NCBI RefSeq assembly: GCF_032854445.1
Contig: NC_088298.1
Coordinates: forward strand, 7,179,504 to 7,243,503
Direction: 5' to 3'
DNA from: Liolophura sinensis
Taxonomy: Eukaryota > Mollusca > Polyplacophora > Chitonida > Chitonidae
DNA length: 64,000 bases
The notes beneath the pieces were generated by a model. That model was not told where the DNA came from. It was given only the letters and a program-made list of their open reading frames with translations, and searched no databases. The position numbers were made by a program, and so were the translations under genes. Every line of letters begins with the position of its first letter. The stretch's first letter is position 1. Of the stretch, positions 25,660 through 53,393 are shown one piece after another.

Positions 25660-25922
25660 GCCCTTAGTGAAAGGCTACTTTAGGTTCAGAAGGTAATACA
25701 AATGCACCGGCCAAAGTATCCCCAAAGCTGGGGTTACTTTGGCCAGAGATTGTTTTGAAAAAAAGACCAACATTATTGACCAAATAAACGTTGTAATTCA
25801 TGTTACTAATTGGACTTTTGTTTTGCTTAATTACAATCAACAGAGCAAGTCTATTGGTAGAACATAAGGAATGATAGGACAAATGTGTGAAACAAATGGA
25901 CTAAAGTAGCCCCGGTTTACAG
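25660..25922. mobile_element. Pogo-type MITE with four GGGGYTACTTT boxes
   Basis: A 263-bp element between TA dinucleotides (25658-25659 and 25923-25924). Its right end, read inward, is CTGTAAACCGGGGCTACTTT, and the left end carries AAAGGCTACTTTAGG. Boxes: 25673-25684 (+), 25709-25723 (-), 25730-25744 (+), 25899-25914 (-). It interrupts a piggyBac gene: RPL lies before it and YKVRPVLDRLN directly after, and PLYKVRPVLD is a typical piggyBac sequence. Pogo/Tigger assignment rests on the TA target and the TIR style. Confidence 0.6.
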
Positions 25923-25923
25923 T

Positions 25924-27012
25924 ACAAAGTGCGGCCAGTATTAGACAGATTGAACGAAGCATTTAAAACATTCTACGTACCAACTCGGGAAGTTTCAATT
26001 GATGAAAGTATGATTGGTATGAAAAACAAATGTGTGTTCATTCAATATATGCCAAACAAACGTCATGCAAGATTTGGTGTACAAAAATTTCAATTGTGTG
26101 ACACAAACGGTTATGTTTGTCATGTGGAATTGTACGCAGGCAAAGAATTAAATGTCGCGTACAATGATGGTCAAGCTCATGGTGTCGTGATGAAATTGAT
26201 GGAGGCGGCTAATCTATTGAACAAAGGTTACCATTTGTTCACTGGCAACTTCTACACAAAGCCGAAGTTGGCTGATACACTCTTTGAGCAAAAAACTCTC
26301 CTCACTGGAACCGTCCGAACAAATTCCAAAGGCCTGTCAGAAGACATAGCCAACGCCAAGTTGCAGCCAGGGGAGACATTATATGCGAGACAGAACAATA
26401 TTTTGGCAGTAGCCTTCAGAGAGAAAAAAAAGTCAGAAAAAGCCAGTCGTAGTACTCAGCACCTATCATGGTGTAGAAAACATTCAAAAGGAAATCACGG
26501 GAAAGGAAAAAACTAAGCCGTCCATGATTTTCCATTATAACTCACATATGGGTGGAGTGGACTTAAGTGACAAGAAAATTTGTCATATTTCGGCTGAAAG
26601 GGCGACCCATCGCTACTGGGTCAAAATCTTCCGGAATTTGTTGGACATTGCCATTCTTAATTCGTTTGAACTGTACAAGCTGAATACTGACAAAGAGAAA
26701 CAGCTTGATAAATACGACTCTGTAGTTTCAATTGTGGAAAGTCTGTGTGGCTCAAATGAAAATGGCCAAGAACGAAATCCCGAGAGGCCCGCGGTCCCGC
26801 TGCACCGTCTTATTCTTCTAGCCAGGCGAAAAGAGAAAGACTGTGTTGTATGCAGTGACCGGTATGGTGGGGGTGTTAGGAAAAGATCAAGGCACTGGTG
26901 TCCAGGCTGTGGTGTTGGATGTCATGAGAAGCACGAGATTAATCTTGATCACTATAAGAGACTTGCACGAGTCGGCAGAAAACGTCGACAAGCTGCCGAT
27001 GTGACAGAATGA
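25924..27012 (+). pseudogene. piggyBac (PGBD4-like) transposase, 3' part (PB2)
   Basis: Reads YKVRPVLDRLNEAFKTFYVP, VSIDESMIGMKNK (first Asp), a degenerate second site (FTGNFYTKPKL, where the usual Asp is Gly), NSHMGGVDLSDKK (third Asp), and a C-terminal cysteine-rich domain (CVVCSDRYGG, HWCPGCGVGCHEKH). One frameshift lies at the A-run near 26426. The frame otherwise holds from 25924 to 27012. Its upstream part was lost: the pogo-type MITE sits at its 5' edge, and PB1 ends at a TTAA just before that. The loss of the second Asp suggests an inactive enzyme. Confidence 0.75.
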
Positions 27013-28150
27013 GACTCGTAGGCCATACAGTGCCGTGTAAATTGAACAATCTGATTAATATTCTATGTATTAATTGAGACTTGGATTATTCAATGACATT
27101 AAATTATTGACAACATGATTTCTTAAAACAGTTGATAAGTTTCATTGAATTTGCATCACAATTACTGAAAATGAACAGAAAACACCGAGACAGTTTCCAT
27201 TACACTATGTTTTATTATTGACATATCACAAGAATATATATTACATGACATGCAAACTTATAATTTTCTGAAAGTATGATAAATTCTCTTTCAAATGCAT
27301 ATAATTGTTTGTCTAATTTATTTTATATTTCCGATGTTATGTGGTCAGATCACTGTTAAGTTTGTCAAAATAAGAAATGGCGGCCATTTTGTGGTCACAT
27401 GACCTCATTAGTGGCGCCACCTAGGTGAAACTCGTCTTACTGCCTAGAGGAAGTAATAAGCTTTCTGGAAATATATGGTTTTATGTGGTTTCCTCCACTT
27501 ATGATCATGTCAATTATCATAATATAGGTCATGCTTCTTCAATATATGCACATTACCATATGAGCAATTTCTTCATACCACAATTAGGGTTAAGAAAGCC
27601 CGTGCAAAGTACATGACTTAAGGCTCTGTGTTGTGAAATGGCTTACTACATTTATTAATTAAGCATTGACATGCACAGATAGAAAATAACCTGCGGTAAT
27701 TTGACAAAATGCCCGATATCACAAAGTACGTGTGATCATTTTCCAACTATAACACTTGCCTCGGCTCTGTATTTACTCTGTCAAGTCTTTGCTAAACTGT
27801 TGTATATTAATGATCCAGTTGACGCAGTCAGAACACCTGGAAGGATTTTGTTGCATTAGCCTGCATGAAAGAGGGTATTTATAAAAATAAAATTAGGTGT
27901 TGTGCTTTGCATCTAATATCAGATGGCTATAATTCAGACACTGCAGATTGTCAAGAACCTACAAGCTGATACTACAGATCACACTGTGTTACAGCTTCAG
28001 CTTTAGCCAACTTGTGATGCTTGGTAAAATGGGCAATTCCTCCAACAATGTTCACTGACTAAGCCTGTCTATAAACACTGCTGACATTCTTCTGACTTAC
28101 ATGTATGTTGTGTAAATGGAGACACGTCTGGTTAATCACAATTTGATAAA
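27013..28150. other. No gene or repeat recognised
   Basis: AT-rich sequence following the piggyBac gene. I could not place the element's right terminal repeat. One short conserved-looking tract (AAATGGCGGCCATTTTGTGG at 27376) is a near-palindrome. No protein was recognised. Confidence 0.5.
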
Positions 28151-28218
28151 CACCATATATATTCTTCAGGCCTATGCTGGGCAACTGGGGACACTTCTCC
28201 AACACAGTGTTTTATGCA
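28151..28218 (+). repeat. 86-bp minisatellite, first (outlying) copy
   Basis: Contains ATTCTTCAGGCCTATGCTGG and GGGGACACTTCTCCAACACA, the core of the unit that forms the arrays at 33123-37870. The copy is cut by the SINE at 28219. Confidence 0.8.
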
Positions 28219-28386
28219 GGGGGCCACCGTTGCTCATTTGGTTACGGCGCTAGCACAGCATGATGACCCAGGAGTCTCTCACCAATGCGGCTTAATGTAC
28301 AGCTGTACGTGGGAAGGTCTACGGCCATCGTGTAAGTGAAATATCCCTGAGCACGGCGTAAAACACCAATCAAATAAATAAATAAA
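28219..28386 (+). mobile_element. SINE, internally deleted copy
   Basis: The tRNA-like head (GCTCATTTGGTTACGGCGCTA) and the tail (AAATATCCCTGAGCACGGCG then (AAAT)n) match the SINE at 10293. The middle, including box B, is missing. It splits a minisatellite unit. An imperfect duplication of about 10 bp (TTTTATGCAG / TTTTAACGCA) flanks it. Confidence 0.8.
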
Positions 28387-28520
28387 ATTTTAACGCACAA
28401 TCCTGTCTAAGTAGGGATGCTATACACATTCTTCTGACCTTTTGCTGGGCAAATGGGGACACTTCTCCACCACAGTGTTTGATGCACTATCCTGTCTAAA
28501 TGGGGACCCTATATGTCACG
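28387..28520 (+). repeat. Minisatellite continuation after the SINE
   Basis: Resumes with CACAATCCTGTCTAAGTAGG, one full unit (TTGCTGGGCAAATGGGGACA) and CTAAATGGGGACCCTATATG, then stops at about 28520. Confidence 0.8.
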
Positions 28521-28703
28521 TAATTGGCCTAACGTAAGTCCGTTTCCACTAAGTATAGTTTTACATACTCCCCTGGTCCGACGTTGCAGGACCCTGCTGT
28601 AGGGTTCCGATGTTATCTGGAGTAAAACAGTTGACTCGTTCGAACTATCAGAAGTCTGTTCAATTATTCAACTCCCGGAGCACCCAAAGCGACGAAACAC
28701 TAT
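28521..28703. other. 183 bp of unexplained sequence between minisatellite and element A
   Basis: This matches neither the minisatellite nor element A. Element A's right end abuts minisatellite directly, so this piece marks an earlier insertion, filler or rearrangement on the left side. No coding was recognised. Confidence 0.4.
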
Positions 28704-31700
28704 CACGCAAACTCAATAATGGGGTGCAATCGATGTCGCTGGGGATTACATGGAAAATGGACGAATGGAACTGCTGGAAATGCATGCCATTTTATCATAT
28801 GTGTGCGTGCCCTAATATTCCCACACATAAACCAGTAAACATATCGAGTGTTATCTCTGGATACGGCGACAAACAACCGTAAATGAAATGTTCGTTACTG
28901 ACGCCGGCACTGAATGTCAACAATGCGCAAATAACTGGGCGAATAGAACTTGGCTGTAGGCACTGTACAGTGCCGTTGTTATTCAGTAGATCTTCAGTTA
29001 TACTTACCATGAAAAATCCCCTTGATTACACTCACACAAGGGAACATGCGGTACGAAATATAGGTGTCGCTGAATTACATGAAATGTTCGTTACATTATG
29101 ATCTGGTACCATAAAATCTTTTAAAAATTGAATATGTATGTCCAGGACATGCTGTTTCTAACCATTCTGGCTTCTTTTCATTACTCAACATCACAGAATT
29201 ACGCACAAATAATCCCTTACCTGTACCTCTGTATTCACATCTGTTGGTGTATGGGCGTATAATTAAGGGGATGAAATGTTCGTTACCAAAATACTACACT
29301 ACGACGCAAAATATCATTGAAATGGTTTTATCAGTACATAGACCTTTCGCATAGGAAACAGAATCTAGACAGAGAACCAGGCATATCTCATAAGATATAC
29401 AGCAGAACACGTGATATAATGGAGCCCGAAATGTACGTTACGGAAATGTTCGTGACAGGTCATACGAAACTGTGGTGACGTAGCACGCTGAAGGCAGATA
29501 ATCAGCTCTGGATGTTTTTGCGCATGACAAAGTTGTCTCCCGCCATATTTCTGAAAGCGTGTTGTGGACGAAATCGTACACACCGACTTGAATTTGAGAT
29601 TTCCAGCCTTTCGATGACAGGTATGGTTACAACGAATTTCTACCTTTTTTATAGGAACGATTTCTTCAAATAAATACGCGTTGTAAAGGTGCAAAGTATA
29701 TCGCTGCAGGCTGTAGAAATCAAAATTCTACACAACGACGGGAGTTTTGGGGTCTAGCATGTTTTTATTGTAATGAAATGTACGTAACCAAAAGTAACGA
29801 ACATTTCTTGGTATTTTAAAGGTTGTTTTGTCGTCTTTTGTTTTCGTTGGACTTAACAGATTTTTGTTACTGGTCTAAAGCATCTTTTTTTAAGTTTCCA
29901 AACGTAATTGATTTGGCTTAATTACGCTAATAATGTGATAATTTTGAGTTAAGTTGCACAATAAATAGTGTAAGATTTACAGGATTCTAAGTGCGTATAC
30001 TTGATAAGGTTTAGGTGCAATTCTGCGGAAGTGAAATCTTTATTTTTTTAGCACATCTGTGAGATTGTTTAATTAGCGTGTTTATATTTGTCATTTTTAT
30101 GTAAATTCTATGTGCATGTTAAAAGAAAATGATGTGAATTTAATGCTTTGCATGGTAACGAACATTTCAGTGACACCCACGTATATCTGCATGGGTTTTT
30201 CCAAATGTTTCATTTCTTTTATTCAACTTACCTACCTTTTAGATGGCAAAGTCGAGAGCTGAAATCCAAAGGGCGTACCGAGAAAGACAGAAAGCAAAGA
30301 ATAATGAAGAATATTTGAAGAAGGAAAGGGAGAGACGGAGAAGAAACTATGTGCCATCAGCACAACTCAGCAGAAGAGACAGGATTAGGAGGAACGTGAA
30401 GAACAACGAAACGCTAAAGAGACATCGCCGAAGAAGGAAGGAAGAAGCTAGACTTGCAGCAGAAGCAGCAGAAGCCGCCATCGAAAATCAACGGATTGGT
30501 GAAAACATGGATAGTAGCGGATATGACAGCCCTGGATCACAAGCCGGTCCATCAAATCTTATTGTACGATTGCCTTTTAACAATAGGCGAAATGGATCTA
30601 GGAAAAGAATTAGCAGGAGTTTGTCAAAGAAAGCGAAAGAATTATCAAAATTACGGACTCAATTCCACGGCTTAAATAGAAAACACAGAACAACACTTCG
30701 CAAGTTTCAACGCCTGAAGAAAAAGTTAGTTGAGAAATCACCCAAGTCACCAAGAAGTCAAACGGAGAAACAAATCAGAGAAGCCAGACTCAACGAGGAA
30801 CAAGGTCGTAAGGTTCGGAGACAGCTGCTTTTGGGAAATTATTGTTCTCAGTGGAGACAGGAACACACCTCACTGGATGACGCGGAGAGTCCACAGGAAA
30901 ACGTGGAGCGTCCTTCTGAACCCTGCCTGCGTGATGACCAAAGGGAAGGATCTGACTTGTCCACTGGACCTGAGGTATACAACGTTGACGACTTTGTTGT
31001 GGCCTTTTATGAAGGCACGTGGTATATTGGCAAGATTCTGGAGGTCGACCCAGCGGATGAATCTGGTTACATTTATCTGATTTCATTTATGAAAAGGATG
31101 AAGAAAACGTTTTAGTGGCCGGTGCGAGAGGACGTGATCTGGTGCAAAAAGGACGATGTAAGGTGCAAAGTTTCTCAACCAGTGGCATCCGGCAAATCCA
31201 AGAGGATGTTTGTCATTCCAAAAGAGGACTGGGATAAAATTGACACTTTCGCTGAGGAATTATAAACATTTTCAAACGATGTACCGAAAACAACTACTTT
31301 TTTTTTAATAATGAAAGAAACAGTGACTGACACGTTTTTGTTTTCATGGATGTAGCAAACACGGACATTCGAGGCATGGTACGATATATTTTTGGGGATG
31401 TAACGAACATTTCGAGCGTGACAAACAAAAATACATTGAAAAACATTTGTTAAGCATATATGTAATGCCTAAATATGTTAATTTTACCTTTACTATGATG
31501 TCATTTCACAAAGTTATCTTAAACACTTTACATCTATAATTCCGTTGTTTGATAAGCAGGGTGCTAGGCCTATAATAGACCTTGACGTGCTTTATGAATT
31601 GAATTATTACAATTTGGTGTAAAGTTCTCCATCGTGATTTGAAACGCGACAAGAACGTTTTCATTGTGTGTATCTTCATTTCTTTTAACGGTATAGAGAG

Positions 31701-32359
31701 ATATAGTTGTATAAATCAAGTGCGGATGTAGCGGAGATGTAAAATTTCAGTTTCGTTCAGTTTCTGAAATGTTCGTTACTTTGCTCATCCGAAAATATTA
31801 TTTCGAGATTTGCTATACCACTCAAAATAGCGGTAACAAGCTGTTTTAGTTTTGTTCATCAATAAATCTAATTTGATTTTCCAGACTTGATAATTGGATT
31901 CCAGCCGTTTAATTTTAGTTCATCAGACACAACACGAACGCTAACTCAGCCATTCTACTTTTTCAACTATGGATGTACAGGGTGCTCGGTTTTTTATTGC
32001 GCACATATCGGCCAAATCGAACTGTTCTCTCCAGATACACAGTTCGCTGGCGGAACAAAATGAGTAAAAGTGTATCAATGCAATTTCAGAGAAAATTCGG
32101 TGAATATCAGAGGAATCTTCTGATGGGTGAATCAATTCAGTCGATCAGTAACGTACATTTCTGGCGGAAACTGACCTCTTAATTAGGCAAAACATAATCC
32201 TGTATTCATAGAAAACTGGTGAAGTGATGATAAAAATAATTCACATGGAGATTCTTCTATTAATGAATGACTAAAAACAAACAAAATATGGTGGATTACT
32301 CATACTTTATTTTTCGAAATTACCGTCTGGCAAATGCACCCCATTATTGAGTTTGCGTG
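28704..32359 (+). mobile_element. Box-array TIR element A (3656 bp), unclassified
   Basis: Perfect 25-bp inverted repeats lie at 28704-28728 and 32335-32359 (CACGCAAACTCAATAATGGG, then GTGCA). Eleven copies of the box GAAATGTTCGTTAC (reverse GTAACGAACATTTC) are spread through the non-coding flanks. Plus orientation: 28885, 29081, 29273, 29428, 29443, 29775, 31766. Minus orientation: 29794, 30155, 31400, 32148. Seven are exact and four have one or two mismatches. One gene lies in the middle (30243-31265). On the right the minisatellite resumes at once; possible flanking TAT. The family is not one I can name. Element B has the same plan. Confidence 0.75.
30243..31265 (+). pseudogene. Element A protein: basic DNA-binding-like N-terminus plus Tudor-like C-terminus, no catalytic core
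   Basis: The frame is 341 codons with one in-frame TAG at 31113-31115. As read it gives 290 residues. The N-terminus (MAKSRAEIQRAYRERQKAKN) is extremely basic to about residue 75, followed by a second basic helical block (about 120-200: KKAKELSKLRTQFHGLNRKH). It aligns in style with residues 1-215 of the element B protein. It then passes straight to a Tudor/chromo-like domain (from about residue 247: VDDFVVAFYEGTWYIGKILE). After the stop this continues in the same frame as WPVREDVIWCKKDDVRCKV to 31265. The roughly 560-residue DDE-like region of B is absent, so this is either an internally deleted copy or a short non-catalytic binding protein. No transposition activity is expected from it alone. 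Confidence 0.6.
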
Positions 32360-32460
32360 TATACACATTCTTCTGACCTATGCTGGGTAAATGGCAACAC
32401 CTCTCCAACACAGTGTTATGTGAACTATCCTGCCAAAGTGGGGACGCTATTATCACCAGG
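32360..32460 (+). repeat. Minisatellite segment right of element A
   Basis: Starts TATACACATTCTTCTGACCT and holds GCTGGGTAAATGGCAACACC, then CAAAGTGGGGACG. It is one diverged unit of the 86-bp repeat. Confidence 0.8.
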
Positions 32461-32684
32461 GGTTCTGGTCTTCAAACTCTTGGTGACATGAACAAAGGCA
32501 CTCTGGACACTTGGGTTGAAAGTAGTACTTCTCGTTATTAACTACATTTTACTCTCTAGAGTGAAAGCTGAAAATGTTTTTATATATTAGTCCACGTGTA
32601 GGCTGCTTGGCATGGTTGCCATAGGTAATCCCAACATGGACTGAACAATGTTTGAACTAGGTAAAAAAACAGGTAACAATATAT
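32461..32684. other. No feature seen
   Basis: Unique-looking sequence between a minisatellite unit and a SINE. No coding was recognised. Confidence 0.4.
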
Positions 32685-32948
32685 TTATTTATTTATTTGA
32701 TTGGTGTTTTACGCCGTACTCAAGAATATTTCACTTATACGACGGAGGCGAGCATTATGGTGGGTGAAAACCGGGCAGAGCCCGGGGGAAACCCACGGCC
32801 ATCCGCAGGTTGCTGCCAGACCTTCCCACGTACGGCCGGAGAGGAAGCCAGCATTAGCTGGACTTGAACTCACAGCGACCGCATTGGTAAGAGACTATGG
32901 GTCATTACGCTGCGCTAGCGCGCTAACCAACTGAGCCACAGAGGCCCC
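32685..32948 (-). mobile_element. SINE, minus orientation, with 12-13 bp TSD
   Basis: A full-length reverse copy of the SINE at 10293: (ATTT)n, then TTGATTGGTGTTTTACGCCG, ending CTGAGCCACAGAGGCCCC. The duplication GGTAACAATATA lies at 32672-32683 and 32949-32960. The box B region is intact (GGACTTGAACTC on plus). Confidence 0.9.
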
Positions 32949-33122
32949 GGTAACAATATATAACAAAGAAAGGATGAAAAAATAATGACTAAAAGATCAA
33001 CACTGACATGAGCAGTTGATGCATTTAAGCAATTGCAGTTCTACCACTGACATAACACATAAGTTAACTATGTATGCCAGTACATGTATAACAAATAGTG
33101 ACCAATGCGAATCACGTGGTAA

Positions 33123-34021
33123 TACTATACACATTCTTCTGACCTAGGCTGAGCAAATGGGGACACTTCTCCATCACGATGTTTAATGCATTATCCTGCC
33201 TTAGTGGGGACCCTATACACATTCTTCTGAACTAAGTGGGGACCCTATACACATTCTTCCGAACTATGCTGGGTAAATGGGGACACTTCTCAATCACAAT
33301 GTTTAACACACGATCCTGTCTAAGTGGGGACACTGCACATTCTTCCGAACTATGCTGGGTAAATGGGGACACTTCTCCAACACAATGTTTAACACACGAT
33401 CCTGCCTAAGTGGGGACACTGCACATTCTTCCGAACTATGCTGGGTAAATGGGGACACTTCTCCATCACAATGTTTAACACACTATCCTGCTTAAGTGGG
33501 GACCCTATACACATTCTTCCAAACTATGCTGGGTAAATGGGGACAACTATGCTGGGTAAATGGGGACACTTCTCAATCACAATGTTTAACACACGATCCT
33601 GTCTAAGTGGGGACACTGCACATTCTTCCGAACTATGCTGGGTAAATGGGGACACTTCTCCAACACAATGTTTAACACACGATCCTGCCTAAGTGGGGAC
33701 ACTGCACATTCTTCCGAACTATGCTGGGTAAATGGGGACACTTCTCAATCACAATGTTTAACACACGATCCTGTCTAAGTGGGGACACTGCACATTCTTC
33801 CGAACTATGCTGGGTAAATGGGGACACTTCTCCAACACAATGTTTAACACACGATCCTGCCTAAGTGGGGACACTGCACATTCTTCCGAACTATGCTGGG
33901 TAAATGGGGACACTTCTCCATCACAATGTTTAACACACTATCCTGCTTAAGTGGGGACCCTATACACATTCTTTCAAACTATGCTGGGTAAATGGGGACA
34001 ATTCTCCATCACAATGTTTAA
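33123..34021 (+). repeat. Minisatellite array, period about 86 bp, left block
   Basis: About ten head-to-tail units of the form CATTCTTCCGAACTATGCTG, GGTAAATGGGGACACTTCTC, CAACACAATGTTTAACACAC, GATCCTGCCTAAGTGGGGAC. Starts of CATTCTTCC at 33338 and 33424 give the 86-bp period. Each unit holds two related boxes, GGTAAATGGGGACAC and CCTAAGTGGGGACAC. Blocks at 33340-33540 and 33615-33890 are nearly identical, indicating recent higher-order duplication. The array is cut at a TTAA by the piggyBac at 34022. Confidence 0.9.
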
Positions 34022-39949: not shown

Positions 39950-40760
39950 ATATGGGTGGATTTTTCAATACGGGCACATATTGAGTGTTGAAAGTCACAG
40001 ACCAAAGAGGTTGTAGAAAACTCACCTAACCTTCCATGCTGGTCATAGGGGTCATGTTCTATATAGCCAGCATAGCAGCAGAGCTGAATGTCCTCCACAA
40101 ATTTTTTTATGGGGGTTTGAAATATTTAAGCCTCTCCACTCCGTTACCTTTTCATTACATTACCTAATTTTGTGATGTTGCCACACTTAACAGTGCCAAT
40201 ATTTTGTGCTTTTGAAGTTTATGATAATTTCGCCTGTATTAAGATTGGATGACAGCTAGCAAATGGAATTTAAAGTTTACTAGAAGGACAATAATAAATT
40301 TTATTGAAGAACTGGTAACGGAGTGGAACATTTGGTAACGGAGTGGAACATTTTGTAACGGAGTAGAGTGTACCAATGTTAATCATGACACAAGTATAAT
40401 TTTAGAGTTCTGATTTTTTATTAACTTTTAATACAGTGAACAAAGAAGTCAATGAGTCAATACATTCAATGAACAACTTAAACTCAGAAACAGTTCAACT
40501 AACATACAGGTATTTGAAGTCTGGCTTACCTGCAATAAGTAAACATAAAATGTGAATACCTGTAATGAACATTTTATAACATTAACACTATCAAAATTAA
40601 AATTTAAAAAAAATCAACAGAATGACACCTGGTCAAAAGAACTGCCTTTCTCTGGAGTTGACAATTCAATTGCAATGACATAAAATCAGCTCAATTTCGA
40701 GTTCCATTTACTGAATCTTAATGTAGCAAACAAGATTCACGATTCACAGCTGCCGACTAT

Positions 40761-43684
40761 TCACTTTGTGTACTTTTTTATTGTCTCTAAGTCATTCTTC
40801 GTGAATATAACATGACCTCTTCTGTCCATGTCGGGCACGTGGAGTGGCTCAAGAAGGTCTTCTCGTGGCTGCCATGAAGATGACGAAAACCCGCTCATCC
40901 AGTCATGATAGGATCCTGTTGATTAAAAGAATAAAATATGATGCTAAATTGATAAGAGTACAGACTTTTAAAATTTCTAAGAGACTTGAAATCATGTTAC
41001 AAATTGTTATTTCATGTGTTTAGAATCAAACAAGCTTACCTGTTGTTGTTCGTTTCAAATACTTCATTTCAAAGCAATCACCTTCTACCGATATCACCGT
41101 CCCGGGGTAATATTTTTCTCCACACATTACAACAGCGTAACATCCAATCTTAGGCCAAGAGTTGTCATGCTGAAAATAAAGATAAAGTAATTTATAATGT
41201 ATGGGAATACCTTGTTGATAATTCTAGTTCTACTAACTGAAAATATGATAAATTTAGGTTAGTAACAGGAGTCTCTGAAGCTCTTACCTTTGGATCAGAC
41301 TTGTTACTGTTGGTGTCTTGGGTATCATCATCAGGATGGATCACCAGGGCCTCTGCTTGCTGGATGCTGGGTTGCTTTAAGATTTGGCCAACCTCACATC
41401 CTAGTTTGGGGATATGTTGATCATAGTTAGACTGCAGTACATCATGTTCCACTGGAGAGTAGCAATCACACTGTGGTCCACAGTAGCAGCTTACGTCTCT
41501 TGTAAGGATGATACCAGGCCTCTGTGAATAGATCTGGTGTACTTTCATCACTCCCCTGACTGCTGGTACCGCTGTTGACACATGTATCTGCACATCTTCA
41601 GGAATCAGACATAATTTGATGCTTGTCTTATCTTCCAGATGTTTTACCAAGCTCTCTGCATCATGAATGTCTGTGCCAGTCATGGTCACCTCATCTGCCA
41701 GGCGTTTGATGGTTGCTCCCACTCCATCACAGGCTCCTTTCCCGTGTCCTGCTTCGCTAAAGTTCCACCAAATTTCTTTGAAACCCATTTGGAAGGGTAT
41801 GTTGCACAGCAGGTGGAGATTGTGTCTACCCCTGTATTGGGTTACAGGGCCATCGCTCATGAAGTGCAGTTTAGTTACTGTCGGATGGTTCTCCCTCAGG
41901 AATCGCAGAATCGGTATCAAATGGCACCAGACCATTGCTGGTGTATGGCTATTGTTGTCACTCAAGCTACAGAATGGGAGTGTGGTTGTTGTTGCCTCAC
42001 CACCTATGTAGGCTACACCTGTGTGTAGTGTTATTTGCGAATTGGATGCACCATAATGGGCCGACTGGATCTGACGCAGGCTTTTCATCGTCCAATTTTC
42101 AGCAAAATCTATGTGAAGTAGGACCTCGTCCCCTCCTAACTGACTTTTCTTCACTCTGCACACCTCAAATTGGTGCAAGATGTTGTAAACATGGGTACTG
42201 AACTTCTGAATCTGCTTATTGTATTCTTCTTTCATCTCAGCGACAGTTCCTTCAACTTTCTCCTTGATTGTCTTCTTTGTTGTTTTTAGCTCTCCCTCTT
42301 TGTCCTTGTATGTGTGGTCTGCTGATTTCCACTGCCACCACCAGGTCTGGCTTTCATCCTGGCCTGTACTTTCAGTCTGAGTGAAAACAACCTCAGCATG
42401 CTTGCACTTTGCACAGTCCCTGTACATACCTCCCTTGTTATCTCTGCTGCAGACAATCTGGTTTATTGTCTCGTCAGCGGACCCTTCGGCTAAATACCCC
42501 AAGTTTTTTAGCTTGTTATGCAAGAGGTGGACATTCTCATGTACTTTACAGAGGCATGTTTCCCTGTCAGCGAGTTTAGGTTTCACTACCCAGAACGGCT
42601 TCAGTTTCCAGAATTGGCTGAAAGACACTGGTCTCACGGGATGTAGATGCACATACTTTCTATAAGTGCTTCTCAACGATTCCAAAAGGAAACGCTTCTG
42701 CTTCTTAACTTTGTTGCGTGTGATGACTTGCTTTTTACCAGCAGCACACCAACTGACATCATCCCTTTCAAAGAACTTTTGAATCTTTTGTTTTACAGCA
42801 TCTGTGACACAGTTGCGTTTCTTAGCTCTCTCATAAACTAGCAGATTTTCATTTCTTTGCTTAGCATTTGTCTTCAGCAGCTTTTTGGACAAGAGACCAG
42901 TGTTCTGTGCTTTGGTCAGCAATCGATATTTTGACAAGATGTTTCCAAAACCAAAAAGCTTTGCGAAGAGTTGTGCCCGCTTCGGATTTTTTTCACAGGT
43001 GTCTTTGCCCTGTTTTATTTGTTGAGTGAGAGCATAATGGAAAATCAGTTCCTTTCTTATAAAGCCCTGTCCAGCATTTATCGTTTGTCGAGCCCTCTTT
43101 CGTGGTGAAGCATAATGGGTAGCACATACATCGCCTTCCTTGCAGTTCTGTCCAAATGGGACTTTGATTTTCAGTTTTGTCCGAGAGAGCTGTTTGCGTA
43201 ATTTCTGGGTTTTCCGCTTTTCATTCTCAAGCTTTTCTGTTAACTTTCTATTAATCCTATAACAGGCCGTGCGGTCCCTACGAACATTCTTCCGACCTCT
43301 CTTTTTCTGTGACGAAGTGGGATTCGCGGAGGTACCTGGTTGGGGTTCAGGCTGTCGCTGTGGCTCTTGCTGTGGCAGATTATGAGGTGGACTTGTCGGT
43401 GGAGTTCCAGTCAACACTGCTGCTTCTTGTTTTTCCAACCAAGCCAAATGATCTTTTTCAGCCCTGCGTTTATGATAGGCTATCCTCCATTTTCTCCGCG
43501 TGGCTCTAACCTCCCGTTTGGTCATATCTGCTACGTATTTTACTTTCTTCTTTTCCCTTCTAGCTTTCCACCTTAATCTCTCCTTCTCCTTGGCTGCTTC
43601 CCTCTTTTCTGGGTCTGCATTTATACGATTCCTATAAGCCCTCTGCTTTTCTGCTGATGTCATTTGTTTCTTCTTGGGAGGCAT
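40761..43684 (-). CDS. Element B putative DDE-like transposase, three exons, 893 residues
   Basis: Exon 1 is 43684-41288 (799 codons), exon 2 is 41169-41040 and exon 3 is 40915-40761. Donors GTAAGA and GTAAGC, acceptors TTTTCAG and CAACAG, and phases 0 and 1 all agree, and no stop interrupts. The N-terminus is very basic (MTSAEKQRAYRNRINADPEK; residues 1-75), with a second basic coiled block at 125-175. A cysteine cluster lies at 377-427 (CLCKVHENVH, CAKCKH). A likely RNase H-fold core follows: HIDFAENW (D526), FMSDGPVTQYRGR (D611), then NFSEAGHGKGACDG (E644 or D653). Residues 733-741 are CYCGPQCDC. Exons 2-3 encode a Tudor/chromo-like domain (IGCYAVVMCGEKYYPGTVIS). I chose MPPKKK as start because a TTCTTTAG acceptor lies just upstream. 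The transposase role is inferred from the D/D/E spacing, TIRs and boxes. Confidence 0.65.
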
Positions 43685-43865
43685 GGCTAAAGAAGAAGTG
43701 GAATAAAAAGACAGAGAATAAAAAATGCTCAGTTCATAGTAATCAGGGATCACAAGATTTTATGAAATTTATGAAATCAAATATGTTTGGCTGATTTCTG
43801 AAGATTTTTCCTAGTTTTTAAATATTAGAACAAAAATCAGCTAAATCAGCATAAGATCATGCAGA

Positions 43866-44203
43866 TACATCAGGGATGTGATCAGTCAAGCAAAAAAAAA
43901 AAAAAAAAAAAAAATAGGAAATGTTTTTTGGGTTCAAGAGATCACTGATGGTCCAATTTTCGTGGCCTTTCGAAAATACCTAATTTGTACAAACAGCATC
44001 AGAATGTGGTAACTAGTTGTTTTATTTAGCAATTTTGGGGCATGTGGAGGTGTTATTCTAATGAATACATTGGAAAAAAGTTGAAAAAATCCAAGGAGTT
44101 TAATTGTTTTCCACTGGTTAAGGTCGTTGTTGTTGTAAAACGAATCTGTTGGACCACAAAAATGCGTAAATCCACGAATTCGCGGAAAAATCACATCCCT
44201 GAT
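43866..44203. mobile_element. Possible MITE with CAGGGATGTGAT termini
   Basis: CAGGGATGTGATCAG near 43870 is mirrored by AAAATCACATCCCTG near 44200. Between them are a 23-bp poly-A run and no coding. The termini resemble hAT ends, but no 8-bp duplication was seen, so the call is tentative. A partial CAGGGATCAC lies at 43749. Confidence 0.4.
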
Positions 44204-45169
44204 TCAAGTACCAATCATCTAATGGCTAGTGTACATTATTATTTCTTGAATGACACCTCATTCTACCAGTCAGATGATAGAATTGGCGAAAATTTCCACT
44301 CCGTTACCAATCACTCCACCCCGTTACCATATTTGAGTAACGGAGTAGAGTAACGGAGTGGAATGGTAAACCTGAAAGTGGGTCACAGCCATAACACAAT
44401 GAGGTACAGCTCAAAGGTTCCTGTTGCAATCTTTCAAGTCCTCCATTGCCTTTTTAAAAATTTACTTCAAAAAGTTGTTCTCTGGTTTCCATGGATATGA
44501 ATGCTGGTAACGGAGTGGAAAGAAAAAAGCATACTCACCTGATTTCTCAACTATTTCAGCAAAATCTGGACTTGAGTGTGGACTTTCTCCACATGCTCCA
44601 TTGTTTTATCTATGGGGGTTACACAAGATACATTTTAGCAGGGGCTAACTTGTTGCCTCCCCTTTCAGTTCATAGATGGAGACACTGATCAGTGTGGTAA
44701 CGGAGTGGAGCCAGTTTTTTGTGACAGCAACAAAATTAATTTTTTTTTCACAATTTGGGGCATGGAGAGATATTTAAGCTTTTGAATATCAATTCCACTG
44801 TGATATTGAATAATAAAAATGTTTCAATTCCTTGTTAGCATTGAATTTAGCATGCAAAAGAAACCTTACAATGGGGCGACCCAGAGTTGTGACACAGTGA
44901 AAAGGGCCCAGTTCCATCATTCAAACCTGAATTACAAAAAAATAGAGAGCCCACAGAACTGGGATTTTTATGCTTTATTAAGCTATCTACCAATATTATT
45001 TCTGCAGATAAAGATTTCCTATATAATAATGTAGCAGAAAATATCAGGCCTGGACATGTTTTTTCCATATATGTGCCCGTATTGAAAAATCCACCCATAT
45101 ACCCGGCGACTTTTCTGCTAGACATGTGCCACACACGCCCACTCTCGGACAAAAACAGCGCGCCACAGG

Positions 45170-45453: not shown

Positions 45454-46000
45454 GGGGAGACCGGGGCAAAGTGGGACCCTTTCGATTGCCTTGGACTCGA
45501 GCTGTCCCAGATATTATACTAATAGGTATTGTGCATCAGCAGTGCATCGTGCACGAAGACCGACGAGTTGCCCCTAAGAGAGAATACGAAGCAAACCGCT
45601 TCGGCATAGTTTCACCAATCTTGAGGTCAATCAAAAATTGTGGCAAATTGGGGTTAAGTGGGACACCCCCGGGTTAAGTGGGTCACTAAGGGCGTGAAGT
45701 GGGACACTAAGGGGGTGAAGTGGGACAAATGTATAAGTTTGCAAGACAACAGCTTTTATGACCATTTCTCATGGTATCTTTATTAATTAAAACAAGTTTC
45801 ATAACTCGTAAGATCGGAGTTCAACAATTCAGTTCGGTTCCAAGTGGAATGGTTAACGTGAAATGAAAACATCGTTAACGTCAATGAAAATATGGTTAAC
45901 GTAAATGGAGAGTCATTTGTAAAGTCTGCTACCGCGACTTCAATCCGAATGACAACTGTTATAAAAGCTTTTTTTCAACAGAGAACTTGTCGGAGCATAT

Positions 46001-46590
46001 TTAGCGTAAATTGAGCTGTCCAAAGTCCACTGGAAACATTAAACCATCTTGTGTGCGCTTGGTGGTACCTGAACGAATACCTTTTGGCAGAATAGCTTTA
46101 ATTTGCTTATGGGAAACGGAAGCAATATCGGCAACATGTGGCTTCAGAAATTTCCTGCTGCATTTTTGACTCTTTCGGAAAAACTCAACTTCGAAGTCAC
46201 CATCCTCATCTAGTGGGCTCTGAATCTCACCAATGAAGTAGACACTTGGACTCCTAGCCTGGGTGTATTCAACAAGAACATGGCTACCGAGACGTATTTG
46301 GCCAATGTTCACCTCTCCTAATGTAAGGGCAGTATCCTCATCATTAACAGATTCTAAGGATGATACTTCCTCATCGGATTCGAATGAATTAACACCATCT
46401 CTTTCTTGGTCTGAGCCTTCGCTACTAGTTTCCGATTCAGTTGCTTGAATTATTTGTCGCTTTGCTTTCTTATTCTGCAGCCGGTTTTCTTGAGCTTCTC
46501 TCATCCGTTTCATTTCTGGCGTTGAGGTTGCCAGCATTGACTTACCGCGTTTCCGACCTCTGTTACTTTCTTTTCTAGCAGGCGCCTATA
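46001..46590 (-). pseudogene. C-terminal exon of a pogo/Tigger-type transposase with a Tudor-like domain
   Basis: The exon begins after a TATATAG acceptor near 46590 and reads PARKESNRGRKRGKSMLATS, then TPEMKRMREAQENRLQNKKA. The basic RGRKRGKS-TP linker is typical of the end of DDE_1 (jerky/Tigger) proteins. An acidic stretch follows, then the same kind of C-terminal domain as in elements A and B (IRLGSHVLVEYTQARSPSVY, FIGEIQSPLDEDGDFEVEFF), ending LMFPVDFGQLNLR at 46001. The frame is open, but the upstream exons with the HTH and DDE domains are not in the window, so the gene is a remnant. Confidence 0.6.
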
Positions 46591-46740: not shown

Positions 46741-46779
46741 GTCAGTCTTACGGGTAGATGGAACCGGAGTGCCCTCACT

Positions 46780-49700
46780 CAGACCCCTATCTAGAAATGA
46801 AAAGGGGCAGGGTGGAAACTGTAGTAGAGGGGCACTGTCCAAGCAGCCGGGGGTCCGGGGGCCTACGGCCCCCGGCCGCTGGATACATTTAATCGCCGGA
46901 AGTGGCTTCGTTGCCATTTTTCAATCATATGGTAATGTAAAATTAATAGCTAAATTAGCCAGACTAATTTACACAAATGGGAAAAAAATACTGTTTCAAT
47001 TGTTTACTTACTTTTCATCATTTGAATCCCTGTAGAGTGTAAAAGAAATACGTGGCATTTCCGGCTGATAGGACAAGTTAATTAATGCTGCTACATTTCC
47101 GGTGTCTCCAGTCATGCCAGTGTAACAATGAGTAGCAGCTGCAAGCATGATGAGCATCTATTGCAGCTGTGACGGGGTTTATAGGAACATGAAAAAATTG
47201 AATTCCACAAAGCAATTTTATACTTAATTTTGAACTCAAGAGACATCTGACAGACCTGTGCTTAAATTTCATTAGGAATTGGCTATAAACCAACTATATT
47301 TTTCATCCACACATTCGAAAGAAGAATTTTGCCGCTCAGTGTTAAAATTTCTACTATATAACAATTTCGTATAAAATTGCTTGGTAGAATCAAGATACAG
47401 AGACCAAAATGGGAGAAACTTCTCAACTCTCAACAGAAACAAGTTGAACAGAAGGGCACAACATCTATATTAATGAGTTAGGGATTTTTTTTTAATTTCA
47501 GAAATTCTTCTACTCAGTCTCTCACTGCGAGTGTACCCTTGCTTGAAATAAAGCTTCCTCCAGTCAGACTGGCAGTTTTATATCAAATAAGAGCATGTGA
47601 AGTAGTCTTATGTTATTAAACAACAAACATTCAAATACATGTACATACATCAAATCTCCAACTCGTGTTGATGGTGACCCCCATACAGTTTTACTGTATT
47701 TAAAACGTGTTAAATGGGAAAAGAAACACAGGTGTATTTTCAGCTCACAGACAATACACCTTTAGTGCAGGCTAAAGTCACAGTGTCTCCCAAACCGACG
47801 CATTTTCTTATGCAACCATTTCTTAGCTGCCCTGCTCGTGATTCTTTCAGCCAGTTCATCATCAATGTTAAGCTTAATATTTAAGATACAGTTCAATGTC
47901 TTATTTGATAGACTGCTTCCCCTGTCATTCTTAATGATATTAACATGGCTAAACAGTCTTTCAACCTCAGCAGATGATAGAGACATGGTATAAACAACAC
48001 TGTACAGGAATGTCAAATTTGGAAATTTCCTGGCAAGATCTTGGGAAGACACAGAGTTCCTCTGAAGTAGCAGTTTACTTAGCACTGGTAAACTACTGCT
48101 GTTTTCCATTTCTGGAAATTCTAGGTGTTGCAGAAGTTCGAGCCAGCCTACCCACTCTTCCAGCAGCAAGAGCTCATCAATTCCAAAGTAGCCTGCAAGC
48201 TGACGCATGTGGTCCTCTCGGTACATTGGTGGAAGTGACTGTAACACATCAATAGGAATTGACAGCGCCCCCAGCTGAGAAATAACATCTATGTTTTGAA
48301 ATGGAAGTTCAAGTTTCTCTTTCAGGGCATCAATGAAGGGAACTTTGACAGTTGAGCGGAACACTTCTTCGTTACAGTTATGCATTAATATTGCATCTTC
48401 ATCTAGTGACATTTCCCACTTTCCTGACTCCGTCTTTCTCCTCTCCAAAATAGCCAATGTACTCTGTAATTTGGGTTCTGTGAAGGTGACATCCACACTG
48501 CGCCTCTGGAAGACTAATGACAGTTCTGCTAAATGGGGCAGGATGTTCCCCAGCAAGCAAAGCATGCGCAATATCTTTTCACTTGTAATCCACTTATGTA
48601 ATGCTCTGGCATCCATTTGGTGCTTTTTTGTAAAGTTATTTGATAATTCCCCAGTTGACGCATTTTCTAGATCCTGTCTGATAACATTAAGACCTTTCAA
48701 AACAACACCAACTGCTTTGTCATACGACAGCCACCGGTGGTGTTTGGCCTGTTGTATTCGCCACGGTGCTTGATTGTGAATCTCTTGAAGACTTCTGAGT
48801 GTGGCTGAACTCACTGAGCTGTACTTGTAGTACTTGAATAGGCTCTCTAACCCCTCTGCCACTGTGTCCAGTTGTGGGATGGAGGCGAAGGCATCCCTAC
48901 ACGCCAGAGCCAGGCAGTGATCATGGCAGTGCATCACAATCGCATTGCCCATACCTCCCTCTTCTTTGAGTAAAGCAGCAGCCCCATTACGCTTGCCTGG
49001 TAAGTACATAATAGGGAAATACATGTACCTCATTACAATGTTTTAAAAAATTAAATGCCTTTTTTTACTGAACTAATCTAATTACAGTTTGGGACGTTTT
49101 TTTGTGACTGATAATATTTTCCAGGCTTATTTTGTGCCGCTTATTTTTCAGGTACCAGGGTATCCGCATCCAGGATTATTATTGTGTTTGTAATTAAAAA
49201 TGTAGTTTAACAATAGTGAATACCACCTAATTTAAATAACAATGTGAAATAAACTTGATTGTTGAACAGGTAACTTGTTTTGTCATTTTTGTCATTTTAC
49301 ACTGTTGTCTAAACAGACATCTGCTTTATATCGAGACTTTTAACTGTTAACTGAGCTTGATTTGCCGTTCAATAACTTCAAGACATGAGCATTTCCTTAA
49401 TATTTTGAAAAACGATAGTCCAACAATGTTTGGAAGAGTGAAAAAGATTTTCCGGGAATGTTATGTGGTAGAATCCATTAGTTTTGTCAAGAATTAGTCT
49501 GCAAATTTCTGCCATGGAAATTTAGCATACATATTAACAAATAGCGGGTATGAGTTAAATGATATATTTTATGAACGCATATACTGACATTTCTAATGAT
49601 TTTAAATTACATAGGAAATGTTTTGACACTTTATACATCCCGATTACCTGAAAACGACGAAGCGCCATCGCTGGTAAGGTTGCTACACTTGCTGGGTTCA

Positions 49701-51020
49701 AGGCCTTTCTTCTGGAGAACATCAAGAGTGGCTTCTTTAATGTCTTTACCAGTAGATCGTGTCATTTCGGCATCATGAAGAAATTTCATTTCCGCCTTGC
49801 CTTCTGTATTTAAGTATTTGATTACTACGCCCAGATTTTTAGTGACGGACTTGTCACACACTTCATCAACCATCAGTGAGTACGTTCCACTGTTTTGCAT
49901 AACTGGCAACAACTCCTCATCCACTGCATCTGACAATGATTCCAACATCTGGTGAATGGAGTTGGGACTCGAGTATGTAGCATTAAATTTTTGCCTGGTC
50001 GCTAGTAGAGTGCTTGATCCAGTTTTGATGCAAAGATTTACTAAGTCTGGAAATAACTGCAACGGGAGATTATGATTAGCAATAAGACTCTGTGTGTTGT
50101 TCATTACTGACATGGTCTTTCACCTTGTCTTTTCTCAGCAGCTTAAAGCCTTCGGTCACCCAGGTCTGGCTGCCATTTGAAGCACGAGTTTTGAATTTTG
50201 AACAAAGTTTGCAGTATAACACCGGTGCTGTTTTCTTCGTGGTTTCATCATATTCTTCTTTGATCAACAACCAGTCAAAGTTCAGGGAAAGTACAGACTC
50301 CTTCCCAACCAGATGTTTGGAGTTATTTCTTGATGAGGAAACCGAAAAGCTATCGATTGTTGGCGTGTTGGATGTGTTGGTATCAGGAACGGAGCCGTCG
50401 GTATCAGGATCTGAGCCATCTGTGTCAGTGTGACCGATAGAGATAGTCGGGGGCGCAGGTGTTGTTGTCGTTGTTGTGGCAGTGGTGTTTGAAGCATCTG
50501 CCGTTTTCCTCGCAAATAAAGTTTTGATTGATTTGCATCCGACAGCTGATTCCGCGTCTTTTTGCGCTCGTCGTTTTGCCCTGCGTGCGCTACTCGGCAT
50601 AGTTGCATTTGAACGTAGGCCAAGCTGGTAAGAACGAACATGGAGTGGAAACTGTACGGATTATCCGAGATCCCACGCATCTGAAAGAGATGGGGGGTAA
50701 CTCTCCTGTATCCGGTTGTCGCACTGGCGCATTTATAAAACCAGTGAGTTATTAAAGATGTGCCCTGTCATGGAGAGTAAAGTTAAAAGGCAAAGTAACC
50801 TCCCTTTGATACGCTCTTATTAGGAGAAGGCGACAAAGCAATAGACTTGCACGAGGGCGTATTTCTCTGCTTGAAACACGCACACAGACGCAAGTATTAT
50901 GATTTAGGACAAAATAAATACCGGGGAAATTAGGAAGGGCAAAAGGGCGCATTTGATTATTGCAATGGGGCAGAGGGGCAGGGCGCTGCGCCCTGCTAAA
51001 ATTGTCTAGCGAGGGGTCTG
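46780..51020 (-). mobile_element. hAT DNA transposon inside element C
   Basis: Ends CAGACCCCTATCTAGAA (46780) and, inverted, CAGACCCCTCGCTAGACAAT (51020) form hAT-type TIRs. The 8-bp flanks (CCCTCACT and CATCCAGT) agree only in part, so the duplication is decayed or absent. Both ends are followed by G/C-rich palindromes (GGGGGCCTACGGCCCCC at about 46855; GGGCGCTGCGCCC at about 50980). The element encodes one spliced gene on the minus strand (50600-47762). Confidence 0.8.
47762..50600 (-). pseudogene. hAT transposase (ZNF862/ZMYM-like), two exons, one frameshift
   Basis: Exon 1 (50600-49648) has a low-complexity Thr/Asp N-terminus and a TTF-type zinc finger (LYCKLCSKFKTRASNGSQTW, DHVSNEQHTES). 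One frame change lies near 50100. It then continues LFPDLVNLCIKTGSSTLLAT, YSLMVDEVCDKS (first Asp) and NLTSDGASSFSG (second Asp). Donor GTAATC and acceptor TTACCAG bound a 651-bp intron (48997-49647) in phase 1. Exon 2 (48996-47762) gives GKRNGAAALLKEEG, HCHDHCLALACRDAF and RWLSYDKAVGV. It ends with the hAT dimerisation motif (SLSSAEVERLFSHVNIIKND, LNCILNIKLN). Only one lesion over about 2.2 kb of coding suggests a young copy. Confidence 0.8.
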
Positions 51021-51667
51021 CATCCAGTTGGGGCATTAAGCACCCGTGCAAAGACAATTTACAGTCATGAAGAACACAACATTATTGCCTAAAAGGATGT
51101 AACAAATATTCCTTTAGTTACATAGGAACACTTAGGGAGAAATGCACTTTACAGTCTTAAGTTTCACAACTACAGTAATAAAACACCATCTTATTGTTAT
51201 CTTTCGGCCATTTTGGTTCCGATGTGTTGACCTTTTAACATCATGGTCAGTAAATACAACAATATACATGCATTAAAAGTGAAATAAAAAAAATGACTCA
51301 TTGTAAGAACTTACTTGAGCAAGTCCTGATCTTCAGCTCCACATAAGAATAAACATCAGATGGTCAAAACAAACAATATTTTAAGTTTTAGTGAAGATGA
51401 TCGATCACAATCAATGTTCTTTAAGCACTTTAAAAATGGCCGCCGTTTGAAGTCAATGTGATGTCATACAAAAATACGTAAACAACAGCCTGATAGGTCC
51501 TGTTAAAGTAAACCATGACATGAAACAAAGCTTCTGATTAGTCTAGGTTGAAAGATTCAAGTGCCTAATACCCCACCACTGTTTTAACTGTGTTTGAATG
51601 AGATTTTTAACACTTGGCTAGGTTGTGGTGCCTATTGCCCCGTGGTGCCTATTGCCCCGCTTTACCC

Positions 51668-52140
51668 TACACATATCTCGCCTTGTAGCATTTGTCGGAT
51701 CTTGCGTAAATGGTGATAATTTTAATCTTTGTCACAAGTGGTTAGTTCAAAATCTAGTTTGTCAAGGATACTTCGTCAAACGCCTTCATTCTAAGTTTTT
51801 CAATTTTACAATGAGTATAACACTCGTTGGCAGGTATGGATAGAGCGTTCAGAATCTCTGGCGATCTACATTATGATCAACCACATAGACGGCGCTGTTA
51901 TCCTTATGTACATATCTATCACGTACATGGTATTTAACAACACAGATGGCGCTGCTTGCCGAGTGTAACCGTCTAACTTGTAAACAGCTATTATGCAGAC
52001 CAGCATGTCATGTGTGACATCATAGATGGCGCCGTTTTTAGTGTGAGATCCCTACATATTAACAGGGAAAAACGTAATCGTCCGTTACTTTTGAATCACA
52101 GTCTGATCGATTAAGGTCTAACGCTCATCATTTTCGATAA
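51668..52140 (+). mobile_element. Reverse-transcriptase element fragment, right part and 3' region
   Basis: Continues the RT fossil after the element C insertion (ISRLVAFVGSCVN, then LVCQGYFVKRLHSKFFNF to about 51840), followed by its non-coding end. Bases 51690-52140 are repeated in inverted orientation at 4449-4805. The 52140 end is approximate. Confidence 0.6.
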
Positions 52141-52189
52141 CGACGAAAATAATTTACGAATTTTTATAATTAGTTTAGCTTCGCCATCG

Positions 52190-53393
52190 ACCTAGCTAAA
52201 CTCTTCCACATCGCCTGAGACCTAAACTTTGTAAACTCTTCCACATCATACACTTTTTTAATCCTGAAATTCCAGGACATTTCAGGACTTTTTGCAGTGA
52301 TTTTCCAGGAGTTTCCAGGACAATTTCCGGTTGACGGGCAGGGTGTGATTCATGCCTTTTGAAGTTGAACACACAAGCTGCTACATTTGTCAACCCAACA
52401 TGTACAGTAGGGCAGACCGGGGTAATTCCATAACCTACTTTTATAAAACTGAAATATTTAGGCCTGGACCCATGAGAAGCACTCTGAACTTACTCTAATA
52501 TACAGGCAACATATGACAAACAATATTACTACATTATCTTGGTCTTTAACATGGACACAATATTTATTATTGAAAATTACAAAAACTGCAATATACTTGC
52601 GGAACGGGGCAATTCCACACCTCGTAAACTTTAAACTGCCAGGAATGAGAAACATACAATCAAATAACTGATAATCAGTCTTTAGATTAAAAAAAACAAA
52701 CAGCAACTGGCTAGACACAATTTAGATAGTAGATACCCATTTATAATAATCTGTCAAATACTGAATAGGCAAAAATTGTAAATATCTTTTAAAAGTAGAA
52801 CCGCAAAATTGTTTGACAAATTAATTTGGCAACATGGGATGGAAGACAAATGTGTATGTGAGTTCTATCACACAGAGCAACTGTCACATATGAAAGCTTG
52901 ACTCGTAGCTTCATGTTCTGATATCTCGGCACAGTTCAGACAGCTCCATGTATCGCATATATCACAGTCTTCATCGTCACGCATGGCTAGCACATGGCCC
53001 GATTAAGCTCTTCCGTCCATTCATCGTACTCCCCCCGTAATATAACAGCTGTACATGTATGTCGGAGGGCGGCAGATCGGCTGATGAAATTTGCGGTTTA
53101 CGGTAATTGTAACAAGGGAGATAATTTATGTCGCAAAACGCACGTGTTTTGTAATGGAATATCCCACAGCGTATCAAACGGAAGATTTCATTCGAGTTTC
53201 AGCAGATTTGTTGGCCTTATTTTCCATCACATTAAACTGAAAATTTGTTTCAGCAGATTTTATTTTTTCCAGGACTTTTCAGGAGTTCACATGCGAATTT
53301 AAGGACTATTAAGGACTTTTCAAAAAAAGATTTTTAAAAAAAAAAAAAAAAATCCAGGACTTTTCAGGATGTCCAGGAGGCGTGCGAACCCTG
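52190..53393. repeat. TCCAGGA-rich hAT-like terminal sequences
   Basis: Bases 53261-53393 read, inverted, CAGGGTTCGCACGCCTCCTG, then GACATCCTGAAAAGTCCTGG, a form known from hAT-type non-autonomous ends. Similar TTCCAGGACATTTCAGGAC repeats occur at 52260-52330. A poly-A run lies near 53335-53352. Left and right boundaries could not be paired, so the unit is only partly defined; the GGGGYAATTCCA fragment lies within it. Confidence 0.4.
52405..52620 (+). mobile_element. Pogo-type terminal sequence with GGGGYAATTCCA boxes
   Basis: TA followed by CAGTAGGGCAGACCGGGGTA resembles the left end of element C (GGAGACCGGGGCAA). Boxes GGGGTAATTCCATAACC (52419) and GGGGCAATTCCACAC (52606) sit in the same orientation. 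No gene and no matching right end were found, so this is a truncated or small non-autonomous copy. Confidence 0.4.

Follow-up and report, generated by a model that had tools for sequence, protein, structure and literature searches.

A stretch of 64,000 nucleotides from the genome of the polyplacophoran mollusc Liolophura sinensis (contig NC_088298.1, positions 7,179,504 to 7,243,503), referred to here as the window, contains two DNA transposons, elements A and B, in each of which a short sequence box of its own is repeated around the gene. Element B (39954..45096, minus strand) has the terminal inverted repeat (TIR) GGGTGGATTTTTCAATACGGGCACATAT and is flanked by a 4-bp target site duplication (TSD), ATAT (39950-39953 and 45097-45100). 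Its main coding exon (41288..43684, minus strand, splice site read by eye) encodes a basic N-terminal region, cysteine motifs and a DDD/RNase-H-like core, and is followed on the same strand by two tail exons, also read by eye: a Tudor-like one (41040..41169), for which blastp finds similar tails in relatives, and a second one with the stop codon (40761..40915). Ten boxes, starting between 40135 and 44696 on both strands, are arranged as a 5' array of six (44295..44709; 44295-, 44315-, 44336+, 44349+, 44506+ and 44696+ on the window strand) and a 3' array of four (40135..40367; 40135-, 40314+, 40334+ and 40354+ on the window strand). Element A (28704..32359, plus strand) is an internally deleted copy with perfect 25-nt TIRs at 28704-28728 and 32335-32359, adjoined by an 88-bp satellite. 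Its gene (30243..31265, plus strand) joins a basic N-terminus with a YRER motif in frame to a Tudor-like tail, the transposase core having been deleted, and has an in-frame TAG at 31113-31115. Eleven A boxes (GTAACGWACATTTC) occur on both strands within 28885..32161, with starts at 28885, 29081, 29273, 29428, 29443, 29775, 29794, 30155, 31400, 31766 and 32148. These numbers and the two orientations had been given in a preliminary description of this DNA and are borne out: at one mismatch neither box is present in the rest of the window, and none was found in 200 first-order shuffles.

A search of the same genome with the B protein gave 55 matches, many of the weaker ones being left out of the locus inspection, and two of the matched loci are copies of element A that retain a transposase. 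The A copy at C65 has an open frame of 837 residues that starts with the N-terminus and finishes with the tail found in the window's A gene. The window copy has undergone a different internal deletion from the copy at C4:450900, and each keeps the N-terminus and the tail in frame and drops the core; the 329-residue frame of the latter is open, while that of the window copy has one stop. TSDs of 4 bp are found at C65 (TTAA) and C4:450900 (TAAA), and the window copy has TATA on its right with the left side disturbed. The expected TATA duplication is disrupted by a segment of about 190 bp (28515-28703), which separates A's left end from the satellite and is possibly a small further insertion. An assignment of A to the CACTA elements, suggested by its CAC ends and an apparent 3-bp TSD, was rejected because the two other A copies show 4-bp TSDs. 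A further B copy, at C1, is flanked by ATAA, and two related lineages, D and F, by GTAT and AGAA, with one G in each; the duplication is therefore 4 bp long and mostly A/T in all the families for which TSDs were available (A, B, D and F).

The A and B families encode proteins with an integrase-like core in which three aspartates are invariant or nearly so, and their transposase is probably of the DDD type, which is also the type of core found in Sola2. Pfam and PDB sequence searches with A, B and relatives gave no transposase family above cut-off and no solved relative. A and B belong to one cut-and-paste DNA transposon superfamily, which is Sola2-like as judged against the description of Sola2 and widespread in animals, with relatives in Haliotis, Argopecten, Pinctada, Mytilus, Lingula, Branchiostoma and Lytechinus. 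That description, as far as the relevant parts of the source extend, gives an AT-rich 4-bp TSD, a feature shared by A and B, and a transposase of about 888 residues; box arrays and Tudor-like tails do not appear in those parts (PMC3627910). No relatives of A and B were found in the viral contigs or the other genome contigs searched.

Box arrays were examined in one genome of 609 Mb, that of the window. Genome-wide counts of exact boxes, made for A and B with the reversed pattern as a control, placed the B box at 31 sites (control 4), 28 of them inside five B copies (at C1, in the window, at C8 and two in C11). The A box was found at 42 sites (control 8), with 27 inside four A copies (at C2, C4:450900, the window and C65). 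Both elements are boxed in their other copies as well, and most exact sites lie inside element copies. At C1:32.6-33.1 Mb, five exact A boxes stand alone; they were considered as possible extra A elements, and this was discarded for the two inspected (L041 and L042), each of which is a single box in a non-A repeat of ~90% identity; in L041, a 44-bp stretch of 84% identity to A lies ~750 bp from the lone box. A lone exact B box (G000:C7:37735431) lies within the matched coding part of a decayed relative of B.

A motif-free k-mer scan was carried out on 20 loci, which do not represent 20 lineages, D and E having four loci each. At 13 of these loci the box k-mer is commoner than in every shuffle, and two others of the loci examined, L033 and L036, are A copies with 6 and 7 exact A boxes. 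An array of its own box is present in nine of the ten named lineages, with lineage I being less certain; this one was accepted because of its frame and spacing, its locus (L038) having five sites in the expected frame at steps of 189, 163, 33 and 33 bp. Lineage K is represented by three loci (L060, L061 and L062) with 8 boxes in each. It is Sola2-like, its tail is a PHD-like finger and not Tudor-like, and its box has palindromic arms, CGTGACGGAATCACG.

When set in a common frame, the boxes read nGTAA CGWACA TTTC in A, GGTAA CGGAGT GGAR in B, GGTAA CRTWGT TGACA in D, nGTTA CGGWAA TGACA in E, nGTAA CACCAC TGACA in F, nGTKA CGTAGA TGACA in G, nRTAA CGGTRA AGACA in H (mostly ATAA), nGTTA CGCCC GACA in I and CGTGA CGGAA TCACG in K, where the arms form an inverted repeat. 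The left half (GTnAC, or ATAAC in H) is kept nearly throughout and the middle is family-specific, while the right end nGACA is kept in D, E, F, G, H and I and the right part is altered in A and B. A kept half beside a variable one, as previously described, holds for the left half, but these six lineages keep both ends and vary the middle. With up to two mismatches, an element carries 4-11 sites of its own box and 0-3 of other families' boxes, as counted in eight families with the bounds of E, G, H and K set by eye. One private box per family, claimed earlier for all the boxed elements, is thus found in the A/B superfamily.

The family specificity of the boxes bears on whether a host transcription factor binds them, with the transposons merely recruiting that factor. 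The position of most arrays upstream of the gene is consistent with such a role. However, the box differs from family to family within one genome and is changed at nearly all sites, and outside the elements exact boxes of A and B are seldom found; we consider this explanation improbable, because one host factor would keep one motif. In the D and E copies, each site retains its own small variants from copy to copy, so there is no sign that recent copying has made the sites uniform.

The layout of the arrays is conserved between families whose boxes differ. One group of boxes lies in the stretch from the 5' end to the start codon, and most families have a second one behind the gene; the 5' arrays surround a site resembling a splice donor, which was recognised by eye in several lineages. 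In gene orientation, with steps in bp in brackets, the 5' array runs - (190) - (157) - (13) - (21) + (20) + in B, - (190) - (156) - (15) - (25) + (19) + in D, - (191) - (155) - (15) - (25) + (20) + in E and - (192) - (168) - (25) + (20) + in F. The 3' array is - - - + in all four, with a last step of 179 in B and of 339-350 in D, E and F. The distance from the 5' end to the first box is 387 bp in B, 388 in D, 386 in E (where the element's 5' end is defined by a TIR-like motif only) and 372 in F, and, counted from the 3' end, the last box ends at 181 bp in B, 187 in D and 189 in F. In A, H, K and I the order of the boxes differs and the steps are similar. Intervals within ≤35, 141-200 or 331-385 bp account for 34 of 34 in a conservative set, in which D stands for the B/D/E/F/G group beside A, H, K and I, and for 62 of 62 in the full set, against means of 10.9 and 20.6 under random placement; since gene-spanning gaps are omitted and the three size classes were drawn after seeing the data, this statistic is a measure of regularity and not a test of a pre-set hypothesis.

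The DNA between the boxes of B, D, E and F could not be aligned by blastn, and in 18 pairwise comparisons its similarity was mostly within the shuffled range, with one comparison at 1 and one at 5 of 100 shuffles. Its segment lengths are nonetheless 175, 175, 176 and 177 in one interval and 142, 141, 140 and 153 in another. End distance, order, orientation and spacing are therefore conserved between families with differing boxes and near-shuffled intervening DNA, an observation that is new here. These data also bear on the view that the arrays are functionless relics of duplication or common descent. Copies of one lineage (D, E) do share site-specific variants, and inter-box similarity is on average slightly above zero, as descent would predict. 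On the other hand, the sites are spread over 4-5 kb in both orientations, the flanking DNA has diverged almost to noise while most B, D and E spacings are kept to 1-4 bp, and the boxes are alike within a family and different between families, all of which makes this view very improbable.

The proteins of the lineages have a common plan, comprising a conserved basic N-terminus, an RNase-H-like core and a small exchangeable tail. The tail is Tudor-like in A, B, D, E, F and H and PHD-like in K, where the match to the finger is below the Pfam cut-off; among 30 homologous transposases one matches PHD and two carry OTU, a protease domain. The preliminary description had proposed that boxes and binding domains diverge together. 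In seven families, G (partial coding pieces), I (box found later) and J (no box) being left out and the E N-terminus coming from a different copy (L027/L028) than the E core, box distance correlates with the distance of the N-terminal ~80 residues (r 0.61, p 0.007; r 0.59, exact p 0.008 with rounded values). The correlation is lower with the core (r 0.38, p 0.10) and, in six families, with the tail (r 0.43, p 0.06). The partial r for the N-terminus with the core held constant is 0.50 (p 0.028) and the reverse is -0.13; leaving out one family at a time gives r from 0.44 to 0.75. This comparison of sequences is a lead only, pointing to the N-terminal region as a possible reader of the boxes. The tail is not likely to have this role, because K, which has boxes, carries a PHD-like finger at this place, and the exchange of tail types speaks for a tail that recognises some general target, chromatin for example, rather than a private box. 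For a beetle relative, the model shows the tail as a small unit of five strands at modest confidence, with a predicted local distance difference test (pLDDT) score of 51-67 by blocks, and structure alignments with two-domain integrases extend across it at a root mean square deviation of 13-20. This predicted shape fits an SH3/Tudor-like barrel, which is not proof of one.

The Tudor-like tail is also found in the third element of the window, C. Its last exon, the only one seen in the window (46001..46585, minus strand), encodes this tail and has 24 genome matches at E≤0.001, including itself. Shallower hhalign runs gave a probability of 16 for the C tail alone against nine tails and of 96 against a mixed set of three, and a deep comparison was then made. 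In it, 105 A-type tails from 151 homologous proteins, together with the tail of the C65 A copy, matched 13 pogo-type tails (C and 12 relatives from this genome, some nearly identical) with a probability of 98.3 and an E-value of 1.7e-14, while 20 column-shuffled control sets reached at most 1.2. Profile comparison thus agrees with the earlier statement that the genes of A, B and C end in a shared small domain, and indicates that the tail is homologous between two superfamilies that have no other known relationship. The C tail folded alone had a mean pLDDT of 46 and this model was not used.

In other respects C stands apart. Its left TIR (45454..45480, plus strand) follows a TA at 45452-45453, reads GGGGAGACCGGGG and holds the first box, GGGGCAAAGTGGGAC; four further boxes follow at 45650..45728 (plus strand), 20-21 bp apart. 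All five boxes previously noted are present at 45466-45715 with up to 2 mismatches, on one strand only (shuffled mean 0.1, maximum 2). The left end resembles the ends beside other C-type tails, and the right end of C is uncertain: a candidate repeat at 51625-51668 has a different inner motif, TAGGCACCAC. Around 11 relatives of the C tail, most flanks have ends TAGGGGAGAnnGGGG followed by a variable stretch and often then by GGGACACTTTT. The C boxes repeat the inner end motif, and a few such repeats were seen at two of the 11 relatives (L071 and L074). These terminal repeats are presumably pogo-type, a name used in the preliminary description. C resembles pogo/Tigger in its TA-preceded left end and in the repeats of the end motif behind it, and its only known link to A and B is the tail domain. 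Three copies of a second C motif, (G)GTTAACGT, 21-22 bp apart, lie behind the box cluster at 45849-45902. Unrelated tandem repeats with ~38-bp steps, or 22-bp units in L076, are found behind C-type genes at L065, L066, L068 (600-1010) and L076 (1-500). C is interrupted by a hAT-like insertion (46780-51020, with ends CAGACCCCT/AGGGGTCTG read by eye), which has Dimer_Tnp_hAT in 47762-49042 and a DUF4371 match below cut-off in 49631-50119.

Two relics carry motifs of the same kind as C. One, described earlier as a miniature transposon with four boxes in both orientations, has three clear pogo-type GGGGYTACTTT motifs with at most 1 mismatch on both strands (25713-, 25730+ and 25903-, within 25670..25915) and a weaker fourth near 25674, with one further match elsewhere in the window. 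The other (52411..52618, plus strand) has the two motifs (GGGGYAATTCCA) reported for it, also with one match elsewhere. A GTAA-like half had been proposed as common to all these elements. While GTAAC(G) is common to A and B, the GGGGYAA of C and the relics comes from the outer portion of terminal repeats of the pogo type (TAGGGGAGAnCGGGG...). On this ground C and the relics are set apart from A and B, and a single system with private boxes spanning them all was rejected. The fixed outer and variable inner part of the C ends resembles the principle seen in A and B, yet it is a separate case and not an array of general occurrence. Other repeats of this region include two piggyBac-like relics (DDE_Tnp_1_7) at 25905-27012 and 34253-36160, the second split over several frames, and satellite units of 86-88 bp at 28384-37600, broken up by element A, a piggyBac-like relic and a repeat that we take to be like a short interspersed nuclear element (32684-32950).

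The explanation we favour, and consider probable, is that Sola2-like families carry private multi-site arrays bound by the element's own protein, this binding being putative. Each family carries its private site of 13-16 bp several times (4-11 copies when up to 2 mismatches are allowed), and its own protein would recognise these copies, most likely through the basic N-terminal region. The kept left half would be read by conserved N-terminal residues and the core of the box by family-specific ones. An array would load several protein copies near the promoter and the element ends, and only kin DNA would be mobilised and regulated. The steps of ~155 and ~190 bp would match the scale of nucleosomes, and boxes paired at 13-25 bp would share a linker or face the same side of the helix. 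The main output of the arrays may be transposition, autoregulation or anti-silencing. More tentatively, and with some doubt on our part, they could constitute a modular address code, in which a fixed scaffold (steps of ~155/190 bp and 13-25 bp, perhaps fitted to nucleosomes) holds sites recoded together in step with the transposase N-terminus, without tandem repeat turnover, so that several barely cross-matching codes occur in one genome.

Several observations weigh against the favoured explanation of self-bound arrays. Fifteen of the 42 exact A boxes lie outside A copies; the count in lineage I does not exceed its shuffles (5 against a shuffled maximum of 5); lineage J (L035, with an open 649-residue frame) showed no array at the k-mer settings tried, nor did L029 (3 stops), L030 (8 stops) and L039 (a fragment) in the same scan. 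The regular spacing was classified after the fact in families of shared ancestry, which are not independent, and four isolated 3-mismatch hits (two in A, one in D and one in H) were excluded from the intervals while some 3-mismatch sites within arrays were kept. Among the inter-box comparisons, 16 of 18 z-scores are above zero, with a mean of ~0.8, and faint leftover similarity is possible. The comparison of distances comprises seven families only; the distances are saturated, and three protein regions were tried.

In Spm/En (CACTA), with TnpA, and in Ac (hAT), a protein of the element binds several short sites near the ends; these elements belong to superfamilies other than that of A and B; we know of no family-by-family recoding with conserved layout in them, no search having been aimed at this. 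The KP repressor of the P element arises by internal deletion and retains DNA-binding parts while lacking catalytic function. By analogy only, the two A deletion copies, which drop the core and keep the N-terminus, may act as regulators with a putative repressor role, the P-element and A proteins being unrelated. No report of such box arrays was found in the open-licence literature, and one may exist elsewhere. The closest apparent analogue is the VANDAL/VANC system of Arabidopsis (Mutator-like), where, in the parts of the sources concerned, a transposable element protein targets short non-coding motifs, many per element, and related families differ in targets and proteins (PMC5735166; PMC10398659). 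The VANDAL motif regions are there described as tandem repeats that change in number (PMC5735166). The A/B-type families likewise carry multiple short private motifs in non-coding parts of each element. As far as those descriptions go, the differences are that VANC is a separate gene, whereas in the Sola2-like animal elements the transposase itself would contain the reader, and that A/B-type sites are not tandem repeats but are dispersed over 4-5 kb at conserved distances and recoded in place.

This precedent, as far as it is described (PMC5735166), lends some weight to a reading in which the arrays are mainly anti-silencing or autoregulatory, as VANC motifs are, with the protein binding over the promoter and first intron and the Tudor- or PHD-like tail recruiting or reading chromatin. 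The 5' arrays, lying ahead of the start codon around the splice-donor-like site, would suit this role, as would the exchange of tail types between lineages and the retention of N-terminus and tail without the core in the deletion copies. Against it, boxes also occur behind the gene, and in B, D and F the last of them is only 181-189 bp away from the 3' end, where recognition of the ends would place it, and the reader would belong to the transposase whereas VANC is a separate gene. We regard an arrangement serving mainly this function as rather unlikely.

The occurrence of private boxes in a shared layout points to recognition of kin by the protein of each transposon, and this makes the evolution of protein-DNA recognition testable in these elements. 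With eight or nine versions of one recognition system, this genome offers a natural data set for the joint change in specificity of a DNA-binding protein and its dispersed targets, and the conserved layout provides a direct handle on why site spacing matters, be it for the transpososome, the promoter or nucleosomes. That unrelated transposon superfamilies have exchanged small tails resembling readers raises a separate question, which is now also testable.

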